NCBI GenBank assembly: GCA_028875345.1
Contig: JAPPEG010000085.1
Span: 1-33,347 of the forward strand
Origin: Gemmatimonadota bacterium
GTDB taxonomy: Bacteria; Latescibacterota; UBA2968; UBA8231
Reading direction: 5' to 3'
Length of the DNA stretch: 33,347 nucleotides
The notes under the pieces were generated by a model. The model saw only the letters and a program-made list of their open reading frames with translations, was not told the origin of the DNA and searched no databases. A program made the translations under genes and the position numbers. Shown piece after piece: positions 1,721 through 5,123 of this stretch. The stretch's first letter is position 1. Every line of letters begins with the position of its first letter.

Positions 1721-2536
1721 ATGAAGAGCGATTACGATAAACCCGCAGCACTTGAACATATATTTAAGCGGAAATACGACTCCGACAATCCGCAACCGGA
1801 GATACCGTTTACACGCGATGAAGTAAGAGACGCGATTACCGCGACAGGCGGGAAGATTCCATCGAATCTGAACAATTTTGTGAAAGATCTTACTCGGTCG
1901 GGAAATTCAGACGCGAGAAGCTCTTCTGCTAGGCAAGCAGGTTATTTTTTGCGAGAAGGAACTCATAGCGGTTCAATGGGTATATTTTTTCAAGACAGCG
2001 GTCCTTTCGCAGGGGTAATCTCTGTAGCTTGTCCCTCAGATTTAGTAGCTAAACCCATTCGTATTGATATCCCTCCTGATATACTCGACCTTCTGCGTCC
2101 CGATGAAGGCGGCCTGTTAGCCGCTATAGAGTATGGAGGAATTCTCGACGACTTTTTTGGCGTTCCTAAAGGAACCATAACGCGCGTCCAAGCTCCAGTA
2201 AAAGTTCAGCCTCATGAATTGGATTGCTTTTTCGTAATGAAAGAAGGAAATCGCCGAATACCGATTCCCTGTGAGGCAAAATCCAAAGGGAACGATGTAC
2301 TCACTCTAAATCAGATCGTAGGGATAGCTGCTGCAACTTTACAGCGACTTATGGAAGACGATATGGATTTTACAATTCCATTAGGAGTGAAACTCGAAGA
2401 CAATGGGGATATATTTATCGCAGAATTTCCCAAGTGCGACTCAAACGATGTGTTGCAGCTAAACTCAAAACTCGTAGCCTCTTCGGTTGTGAAGAAAGCT
2501 CGATATACATTGGTTCCCAAGCCCCCGAAGTGGTAA
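1721..2536 (+). CDS. Putative restriction endonuclease, PD-(D/E)XK-like, partner of adjacent DNA methyltransferase
   Basis: ATG at 1721 with AAGGAG upstream (1701-1706); motif ELDCFFVMKEGNRRIPIPCEAKSKG (D at 2222, E-A-K at 2273-2281); 0-bp convergent junction with a methyltransferase gene. Confidence 0.65.
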   Translation: MKSDYDKPAALEHIFKRKYDSDNPQPEIPFTRDEVRDAITATGGKIPSNLNNFVKDLTRSGNSDARSSSARQAGYFLREGTHSGSMGIFFQDSGPFAGVISVACPSDLVAKPIRIDIPPDILDLLRPDEGGLLAAIEYGGILDDFFGVPKGTITRVQAPVKVQPHELDCFFVMKEGNRRIPIPCEAKSKGNDVLTLNQIVGIAAATLQRLMEDDMDFTIPLGVKLEDNGDIFIAEFPKCDSNDVLQLNSKLVASSVVKKARYTLVPKPPKW

Positions 2537-3853
2537 CTAACTGTTCCATCGCAAAAGAACAACCTCTTCGCGCAAATGCTCTTGCGTCGCTGTAGAGAAC
2601 CGCGTACGAAATAAATCAATGTCCATTACTTCATAGCCAAGCTCTTCCGCTATACTTGCTAAAAGCTCTCCCGTCCGAATTAAAATCCTGAAGAAAGAAG
2701 CCTGATCTCCGACGACATAAGCGAGCTGGGCACCTGGTGCTAAAACTCGTTTTAATTCTTCTAAGTGGCGCGCCATGCCTCCAAAATATAGTCTCACTAC
2801 TCGAGCATAGAGTTTCTCAAACCCCGACGTTTTTCCCAGCTCTATCCGACGAGCTTCTATCCGATCCGCCAACTCTTGTATGCGTTCATTATCCTCAACC
2901 CAGCTCTCGTCTGTATCTGCTTTATACACTGCTCTAGTATTGGATCGAAGCAATTTCTGCTTTTGTCGACGCAGATCGGCGCGATTGTTTATATAACCAA
3001 GTAAAACAGATTCAAGACGAGTCGTTCTCGTATAATCTTTTTCATTGGGATATGGAGGTGAGGTTATAACGGCATCAAACATCAAGGGCTCTAAGCAAGG
3101 ATCTACGCTGCGTGAGTCCGTAAGTTTTACTAGTGATGGTACACCTTTGTAGCGCTTGATCTGGGTATGGCGTAAATCATTCGCCATGTCTTTTACACCC
3201 TTTAACCAAGGAGCAATAACCGGAGCATCCTCTTTCGGCTTTCCAACTCCAACTTCTGGACCAAAACGCAAATTACTGATACTGTAAACTAGCTGTTTAG
3301 CAAGCGCTAACCTTTCATGTGCAATTAGATGTTTATCTGAATTTTTATTTAGGTTATTTATAAGTGTAAGAGCCTTATGGAGTGGTTTCGGGCTTATGGA
3401 GTTTTTGATGAGCAGCGATTCTAATTGGGGGTCTAAGGGTTTCAGATTCGTTTCTTTGCCGTTAACAAAAGGCTTGAAAATAGGATCGTCTTCGATGCCT
3501 TCTTTTTCTAGTTCCGCTTCTACTTCTTTAGTAATCCCCCTAGCATGTTTAACAAGCTTATCGGGATCTATATCCCATGCTACCTTAGTTTGAGCGAAGA
3601 ACTGCACCACAGGATTGGCCTCTAAGCCCGCACTGGGAATACCATTCTTCTTGCACTCTACTAAGGTTGTTCCCGTACCACAAAATGGATCCAAGACCCA
3701 GTGGTGCTTTGTCAAGCCAAACCTTTCAATGTAGCGGCGAACCAAGTGAGGCGGATAGGAAAGAACAAACCGATACCATTCGTGGACAGGCAGATCTTCC
3801 TCGTAAATTCGATTTAATTCTTCCCCGGCTTTAGTTTGCACTGCATATACCAT
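2537..3853 (-). CDS. DNA methyltransferase (N4-cytosine/N6-adenine family; TSPPY motif favours m4C)
   Basis: Motif I DPFCGTGTTLVE near N-terminus and motif IV AVITSPPYPNEKDY later; start ATG at 3853 preceded by GAAAGGTAGAGAG; in-frame upstream extension to 3895 would overlap the antitoxin gene. Confidence 0.9.
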   Translation of the reverse strand: MVYAVQTKAGEELNRIYEEDLPVHEWYRFVLSYPPHLVRRYIERFGLTKHHWVLDPFCGTGTTLVECKKNGIPSAGLEANPVVQFFAQTKVAWDIDPDKLVKHARGITKEVEAELEKEGIEDDPIFKPFVNGKETNLKPLDPQLESLLIKNSISPKPLHKALTLINNLNKNSDKHLIAHERLALAKQLVYSISNLRFGPEVGVGKPKEDAPVIAPWLKGVKDMANDLRHTQIKRYKGVPSLVKLTDSRSVDPCLEPLMFDAVITSPPYPNEKDYTRTTRLESVLLGYINNRADLRRQKQKLLRSNTRAVYKADTDESWVEDNERIQELADRIEARRIELGKTSGFEKLYARVVRLYFGGMARHLEELKRVLAPGAQLAYVVGDQASFFRILIRTGELLASIAEELGYEVMDIDLFRTRFSTATQEHLREEVVLLRWNS

Positions 3854-3866
3854 CTCTCTACCTTTC

Positions 3867-4136
3867 TCAATCTTGGACTTCAGCCTCGTCTTCAACAGAA
3901 GAGCCTATTGTTTCGCCGAGACTGTAAACGGGAGCCAATTCGCCGATCATATCGCTCATCTTCTGTCTTTCAGACGAATTTGCCAACAATTGATTAAAGT
4001 CCGCTAAGCTCATTATGATTGCTTGAGATACATTGCGTCGTTTGACAATATATCTAGTCCGATTCTGAACAACTGAGTCTATTACCTGACCAAAGTTATT
4101 TTGAGCTTTGGTCGAAGCTATGACTTTTGTTTCCAT
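3867..4136 (-). CDS. Phd/YefM family antitoxin-like DNA-binding protein
   Basis: 89 aa: METKVIASTKAQNNFGQVIDSVVQNRTRYIVKRRNVSQAIIMSLADFNQLLANSSERQ... is the classic Phd/YefM pattern; AGGAGG upstream of start. Confidence 0.85.
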   Translation of the reverse strand: METKVIASTKAQNNFGQVIDSVVQNRTRYIVKRRNVSQAIIMSLADFNQLLANSSERQKMSDMIGELAPVYSLGETIGSSVEDEAEVQD

Positions 4137-4160
4137 AGAGTAAACGCCTCCTGATTTAGT

Positions 4161-4176
4161 TATATTAGCTAATATA
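4161..4176. promoter_or_regulatory. Perfect 16-bp palindrome TATATTAGCTAATATA, candidate operator for the antitoxin-methyltransferase operon
   Basis: Self-complementary over all 16 bases; lies just downstream of the predicted -10 on the minus strand and upstream of the ribosome-binding site. Confidence 0.65.
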
Positions 4177-4179
4177 GCT

Positions 4180-4208
4180 TATATACCTATCCAATATATC
4201 TCTGTCAA
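4180..4208 (-). promoter_or_regulatory. Sigma70-type promoter for antitoxin-methyltransferase operon
   Basis: Minus strand reads TTGACA (4208-4203) - 17 nt - TATATA (4185-4180), followed by the palindrome and the AGGAGG RBS. Confidence 0.75.
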
Positions 4209-4304: not shown

Positions 4305-5123
4305 ATGAACTCACTATTTCGCCGCCAAGCACCCTCTGCAGCCGATTTGGACTCCTTCCACCAAGACGGCTACATCTTCTACCCAGACGTACTCAAAGAC
4401 GAGGCACGGCGCAGCCTAACCAACGAAATCCTCGGTCTCGACTCGGTGCGCGGCTACCTCGACGCCTTGGACGAGAAATCCGCCGCGCCCCAGTCCTATT
4501 TCGTCCGCCCTTGGAACGACCGCGGCCCGTGCGGCGACCACCTCATCGACGATCCTTTTGTCATCGCGCTGCTGCAAGCCACCATCGGCCCCAACTACCA
4601 CTTCTGCCACTCCGCCCTCAACCTCGCCCCACGCGGCATAGGCCCCATTCCCTTTCACCAAGACCACCACCACTGGAAGCACGAAAACCCCGTCAACCTC
4701 GCCGAGCGCGACAAGTACTACATTCAACTTCTCTACTATCCCAATGGCTTCACACTCGGCGACCGCAACCTCAAGGTCATTCCCGGCAGCCACCTCGTCG
4801 CTCCGACCGCAGAGGCCACGCCTGAACGCATGCTGGCCGGGGCATACGACGCAGAAGCTGGGCGCGAGCTAAAAGAGGTTCGGCTCGCAGTGCCTCCGGG
4901 CAGCATGGTCTATATCAACGCTCGGATTTTCCACGCTGTCGAGGCCAAACCCGCGGACTCTCCCCAACCCTATCGCATCTTCAACATCGACATCTTCAAA
5001 GAAGCCGGGCCGCCGCATCGCTATACGCAGGAGATCCCGCCCGAGTGGATTGAACGCGCCAGTCCCCAACGCAAAAAACTCTTTCTCCGCGAGCCTTATA
5101 CGGAGGGATGCTGGGCGGCCTGA
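4305..5123 (+). CDS. Phytanoyl-CoA dioxygenase (PhyH) family protein
   Basis: 272 aa; DSFHQDGYIFYPDVL N-term, Fe-binding HxD in IPFHQDHHHW, distal FHAVEAKP. Confidence 0.88.
   Translation: MNSLFRRQAPSAADLDSFHQDGYIFYPDVLKDEARRSLTNEILGLDSVRGYLDALDEKSAAPQSYFVRPWNDRGPCGDHLIDDPFVIALLQATIGPNYHFCHSALNLAPRGIGPIPFHQDHHHWKHENPVNLAERDKYYIQLLYYPNGFTLGDRNLKVIPGSHLVAPTAEATPERMLAGAYDAEAGRELKEVRLAVPPGSMVYINARIFHAVEAKPADSPQPYRIFNIDIFKEAGPPHRYTQEIPPEWIERASPQRKKLFLREPYTEGCWAA

Follow-up and report, generated by a model that had tools for sequence, protein, structure and literature searches.

A Phd/YefM-family protein encoded directly upstream of a DNA methyltransferase (MTase) in a Gemmatimonadota bacterium is likely, at a probability of roughly 70%, to repress its own operon and so clamp expression of phd and the MTase. 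It would act as the controller of a type II restriction-modification (R-M) system, with the Phd/YefM fold instead of the helix-turn-helix (HTH) fold of a C protein. In any R-M system the protective enzyme has to be made ahead of the one that cuts, and the HTH C protein is the classical solution. A reading of the sequence alone had proposed that an antitoxin-fold autorepressor sets the MTase level here, and this proposal gains support from the conservation of the Phd-MTase pair in two R-M families, from the lack of a toxin gene, and from a conserved, single-copy putative operator. The Phd-MTase association holds up on inspection and is conserved. The controller reading, too, is supported, and it can be taken further: a Phd-type protein was probably recruited to R-M systems as their dedicated switch.

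The locus and its three genes

The window (the whole stretch of DNA analysed, 33,347 nucleotides) is one contig of a 5.0-Mb draft genome, G000, that is 87% complete. The nearest deposited relative with the nuclease is the metagenome-assembled genome (MAG) Gemmatimonadetes bacterium SB0661_bin_36. Features of the locus are listed by window position, with the evidence for each in parentheses.

421-1701: polysaccharide-flippase-like gene flanking the locus (PF01943)
1721-2536, plus strand: candidate type II restriction endonuclease (REase), 271 aa, PD-(D/E)XK-like, with E185-A186-K187 (weak PADLOC match, synteny)
2537-3853, minus strand: DNA amino-methyltransferase, 438 aa, motif I N-terminal and TSPPY C-terminal (profiles and orthologues)
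3867-4136, minus strand: Phd/YefM-family protein, 89 aa, proposed autorepressor and R-M controller (PF02604, TIGR01552)
4147-4152, minus strand: Shine-Dalgarno sequence AGGAGG of phd (sequence, orthologue alignment)
4161-4176, unstranded: putative operator, perfect 16-bp palindrome TATATTAGCTAATATA (conservation, genome counts, half-site comparison)
4180-4185, minus strand: -10 hexamer TATATA of the phd-MTase promoter (sequence; TATATA or TATAAT in most orthologues)
4203-4208, minus strand: -35 hexamer TTGACA of the phd-MTase promoter (sequence; TTGAC(A/G) in seven of eight phd loci, the one without it being that of G053)
4305-5123: PhyH dioxygenase gene flanking the locus on the other side (PF05721)

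All three ORFs lie where the sequence-only reading had placed them, and its description of the arrangement holds. The Phd/YefM gene is upstream of and co-oriented with the TSPPY MTase, with 13 bp separating the Phd stop from the MTase ATG, and the EAK-motif nuclease is convergent with the MTase with no gap between them, the two stop codons abutting at 2536/2537. The toxin gene is likewise absent: with ORFs down to 20 aa checked in the window, no toxin ORF is found around Phd.

The Phd protein belongs to family PF02604 (E 1.7e-9; 37.7 bits against a cut-off of 29.8), with orthologues scoring 42.8 and 46.5 bits, and it also matches TIGR01552. Residues 3-52 give a profile match to the E. coli YefM structure 2a6q, while a single-sequence AlphaFold prediction of Phd alone is one long, implausible helix. 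The family is usual company for a toxin, yet the adjacent toxin gene of a Phd/YefM toxin-antitoxin module is missing, the next gene being an MTase at all eight loci. A C-terminal segment, PVYxLGET, is kept across loci with different neighbours; it is the toxin-binding part in canonical Phd/YefM proteins, and its conservation means that this Phd may also have a protein partner. In plasmids, phages and viral contigs the relatives of this Phd are only weak or absent, and the weak relatives examined are ordinary antitoxins, two of them beside YoeB toxins.

The MTase matches PF01555 (E 8e-12) and the PADLOC model MTase_II (E 1e-42). Its motif I, DPFCGTGTT, is at residues 55-63 and TSPPY at residues 264-268, with a long middle part between. 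The nuclease has no Pfam match and weakly matches the PADLOC type II REase model PDLC03404 (E 9e-4). Synteny supports this weak match as a real one: the gene next to MTase homologues of 54-58% identity (G002, G017, G021, G022), and next to a homologue of 62% in G039, encodes a PDLC03404-type REase, as assigned by strong profile matches or by alignment. The locus thus holds the linked MTase and REase of a type II system, the REase being recognised by distant similarity together with synteny. An AlphaFold model of the nuclease built from four sequences has a mean pLDDT of only 38.

A single-sequence search with the nuclease finds nothing in plasmids, phages or viral contigs; an alignment-based search finds its REase family in two viral contigs, where it is paired with a C5 cytosine MTase (L101 2623-4780, L102 2650-4762) and comes after that gene. 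The occurrence of the family with a different kind of MTase makes this a type II REase lineage that swaps its MTase partners.

In the window, the REase ATG is 20 bp past the flippase stop (1701-1721) and has its own Shine-Dalgarno sequence and no convincing promoter. REase expression may for this reason need read-through from the host gene.

Occupied, empty and nuclease-deleted sites

The check proposed along with the sequence-only reading, a genome search for a conserved neighbourhood, finds the Phd-MTase adjacency in five congeneric genomes and in two further MTase contexts. In the five congeneric genomes (G000, G043, G047, G042, G050) the pair occupies one site, and MTase orthologues in the other four are 86-98% identical to that of the window. 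All three genes are present in G000, G043 and G050; G047 and G042 have Phd and MTase without the nuclease. The site is empty in G048 and G049 (L161, L162), where the flippase and PhyH genes are direct neighbours, and comparison of occupied with empty sites shows similarity to the window resuming at the PhyH start. By this comparison the locus is a horizontally acquired island.

The two nuclease losses look like separate deletions. In G047 (L048 7252-7362) the start and the last codons are kept around the deletion, and in G042 (L049 740-761) the last codons alone remain. These two genomes represent natural solitary-MTase states of the same island.

A second restriction-modification family behind Phd

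In another family of the phylum, genomes G032 and G039 encode an orthologous Phd (67% and 63% identical to the window Phd) located 17-23 bp upstream of a 360-aa beta-class MTase. The MTase of G039 matches PF01555 (E 5e-44), and the convergent REase is of the NotI family (PF12183, E 4e-11), so that this is a NotI-type R-M system. The NotI-family REase gene overlaps the MTase gene at the 3' ends, and that of G032 carries an in-frame stop.

L059 3832-6020 (G039): Phd-MTase with convergent NotI-family REase
L058 2749-4943 (G032): Phd-MTase with convergent NotI-family REase

In G053, a Phd of 62% identity precedes a further MTase start (...DCVITSPP) at a contig end, which cuts the gene to 54 aa, too short for Pfam. 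Its best matches in the phylum are the MTases of G032 and G039, so this MTase, too, may be of the NotI type. Because of this resemblance, two secure R-M families are counted, not three, and independent associations of Phd with R-M number two, perhaps three, in genomes that are mostly MAGs.

The association stands out from the usual company of Phd/YefM genes in the phylum. A sample of 68 further PF02604 loci, in about 60 of which the Phd ORF was located, has no case of a following MTase (0 of ~60), and most of these genes precede RelE/ParE-like or PIN-like genes; ORFs were assigned from position plus simple motifs and individual loci may have been misjudged, but the contrast is clear. Beyond the phylum, no Phd-MTase pair is found in plasmids, phages, viral contigs or one nuclease scan of genome contigs. 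With the association conserved and a canonical toxin not normally present, two of the outcomes named beforehand as fatal to the controller reading do not hold, and they leave the reading unrefuted.

Gene orientation differs between R-M systems with and without Phd. Where Phd is missing, relatives of both families arrange the MTase and REase genes as a tandem pair on a single strand (the first family at five loci, the NotI family in plasmids of Klebsiella and Acinetobacter and in a viral contig), whereas in both Phd-linked systems the REase is inverted, tail to tail with the MTase. Phd would thus go with an REase that has moved out of the operon. The link between REase inversion and Phd is suggestive, coming as it does from just two independent events.

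A candidate operator at the phd promoter

Reading toward phd, the upstream region consists of TTGACA, a 17-bp spacer, TATATA, TATATTAGCTAATATA, AGGAGG and the ATG. The palindrome and an adjoining AGCTA make up two AGCTA half-sites 9 bp apart, beside the -10 hexamer. This is a putative palindromic operator at the gene's own promoter, a trait of the PF02604 family. A 30-bp promoter-operator block of G000 is identical at 22 of 30 and 21 of 30 positions to those of G032 and G039, with none of 1000 shuffles as good. Identity to G053 is 17 of 30 (26 of 1000 shuffles), or 16 of 22 over the 22-bp palindrome part (1 of 1000), and two upstream control blocks are at chance in the same comparison. The block is conserved even though synonymous sites between these genes are saturated, which points to constraint.

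Paired AGCTA-like half-sites 9 bp apart occur in seven of eight phd promoters of this group against none of 67 other Phd promoters. TAGCTA itself is found in four of the 67, three of them before PIN-like genes; the Phd-PIN toxin-antitoxin promoters of the phylum that carry TTAGCTA-type sites include those of L123, L127 and L136 (about 1500-1600 in each). Such counts suggest that TAGCTA-type sites belong to the repertoire of Phd-type repressors.

Each of the genomes G000, G042, G043 and G050 has a single copy of the 12-bp core TATTAGCTAATA, and in every case that copy is at phd; elsewhere the core is seen just in G026 (twice) and G006 (once). The two exact sites in G026 (L110 1771-1864) are 82 bp apart, upstream of an unrelated XRE-type regulator gene.

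The REase gene has no recognisable operator, and other operator-like sites in the window have two mismatches and are at chance, so any control of the REase by Phd would be indirect at best. A promoter pattern scan finds no more sites than in shuffles; the phd promoter escapes it, since the rule accepts only -10 hexamers that end in T.

Possible roles of the Phd protein

Phd might be a roleless leftover of a decayed toxin-antitoxin module, placed before the MTase by chance. Solitary antitoxins are common, the toxin is absent here, and the five congeneric loci amount to one inherited insertion. Chance placement is nevertheless unlikely, as it does not explain why Phd also accompanies an unrelated R-M family in a different taxonomic family of the phylum, and it leaves unaccounted for the conserved operator and strong purifying selection: the phd genes of G000, G043 and G047 have 7-14 synonymous and no nonsynonymous differences (dN/dS for the MTase is ~0.04-0.14).

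It is improbable that Phd serves mainly as a partner protein of the MTase, acting on its specificity, stability or inhibition, and not mainly as a transcription regulator. Phd does remain with the MTase after REase loss, and its C-terminal segment is conserved. The MTases concerned, however, differ in motif order (I before IV in one, IV before I in the other) and have little in common beyond catalytic motifs, and the conserved operator indicates a DNA role for Phd.

The sequence-only reading had Phd as a controller of the MTase/endonuclease pair, and this is supported for the MTase and not supported for direct action on the nuclease, for which an acidic C-terminal tail had been put forward. 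A related possibility is that Phd is a true antitoxin that binds the REase directly, with the REase as its toxin. Phd/YefM proteins neutralise toxins via their C-terminal tails, the PVYxLGET segment is conserved, and R-M systems behave like toxin-antitoxin systems (PMC3874152). The acidic tail, however, is not conserved (...NTPKK in G039, ...NTSD in G032, ...GQR in G042), the REases found beside Phd are unrelated to each other (PDLC03404-like in one case, NotI-family in the other), and the REase gene lies outside the phd operon. Phd is also kept after two different REase deletions, with no amino-acid change in G047, and beside the stop-bearing REase of G032. A nuclease-holding Phd would not be expected to persist after nuclease loss, and retention of Phd and MTase where the nuclease is lost (two genomes) or broken (a third locus) shows Phd going with the MTase, not the nuclease. 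Direct binding of the REase is accordingly quite improbable.

That the partner of Phd is a toxin from another part of the genome, and its co-transcription with the MTase incidental, is very improbable: the C-terminal segment is conserved despite varied neighbours and the genome has several further Phd/YefM genes, but the once-per-genome operator core means that no distant toxin promoter has it too, and close Phd orthologues sit before MTases only.

It would appear, then, that Phd is an autorepressor of the phd-MTase operon. Type II antitoxins repress their own promoters via inverted repeats (PMC3874152), and on this basis we infer that Phd binds a TTAGCTAA-type operator beside the -10 of its own promoter and, once bound, represses the operon. 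On entry into a Phd-free cell the promoter would be open and the MTase made first, in an early burst; Phd would accumulate later and clamp the MTase at a steady level. Because the REase gene is on the opposite strand, outside the Phd operon and tail to tail with the MTase, early transcription of the MTase operon would run antisense into it and delay the REase, and later repression by Phd would relieve the effect. Antisense or convergent control occurs in other R-M systems (PMC12707154).

Relation to known regulators

C proteins of type II R-M systems are also small DNA-binding proteins encoded within the R-M locus, with a palindromic operator at their own promoter. The C protein of Esp1396I, which also represses its MTase, is an especially close case. 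C proteins have an HTH fold and usually precede and activate the REase, whereas here the protein has a probable Phd fold and precedes the MTase. The locus has a single regulator-like gene, the Phd-type one, and shows neither a regulator gene before the REase nor an operator at an REase promoter. Autogenous feedback and MTase-first timing, both described for C proteins (PMC12707154), would be expected of Phd as well.

The regulator nearest in logic is RptR, a dedicated autorepressor of type I R-M defence islands, about 80 aa long and encoded by the first gene before a methyltransferase gene (PMC12255303). RptR binds direct repeats of 9 bp that contain TAGCTA, and this operator is close to the -10 and 31-58 bp upstream of the start codon (PMC12255303); here, also with a small proposed autorepressor before an MTase, AGCTA half-sites 9 bp apart lie 27-53 bp before the start. 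RptR belongs to type I systems and is described as four alpha helices, with no close PDB relatives (PMC12255303), whereas the present protein matches PF02604 and YefM and goes with a type II system; RptR (WP_000343040.1, 9R2Z) is not among the matches listed by a profile search of a PDB copy. The operator region at 4161-4185 is strikingly like the RptR operator though the proteins appear unrelated, RptR being reported as all-helical and without close relatives.

P1 Phd and E. coli YefM have the same domain (PF02604), size and autorepressor logic with inverted-repeat operators; the differences here are that the toxin is absent and the operon partner is a DNA methyltransferase. A Phd-type protein within an R-M locus is also seen in TvrA/TvrT, a phd-doc-like pair reported to limit gene expression in the SpnIV type I locus of pneumococcus (PMC6265443), but there a Doc-like toxin is present, a recombinase gene is targeted and the system is type I. 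Searches of open-access literature turned up no earlier description of a type II system controlled by a Phd-type protein.

Tentatively, and at somewhat short of even odds, the two families may belong to a class of exchangeable Phd-fold R-M controllers that move between unrelated type II systems, repressing the MTase via paired AGCTA sites and delaying a convergent REase. If such a class exists, the TAGCTA 9-bp-repeat operator it has in common with RptR would represent either convergence or a common control code.

A Phd-fold controller, if the autorepressor reading is true, would be a separate solution to MTase-first timing, with an antitoxin fold turned pure regulator of an immune system. It would predict that other "orphan" Phd genes control neighbouring defence genes, and would bring together at a single real locus two kinds of regulation that theory has long compared, that of toxin-antitoxin modules and that of R-M systems.
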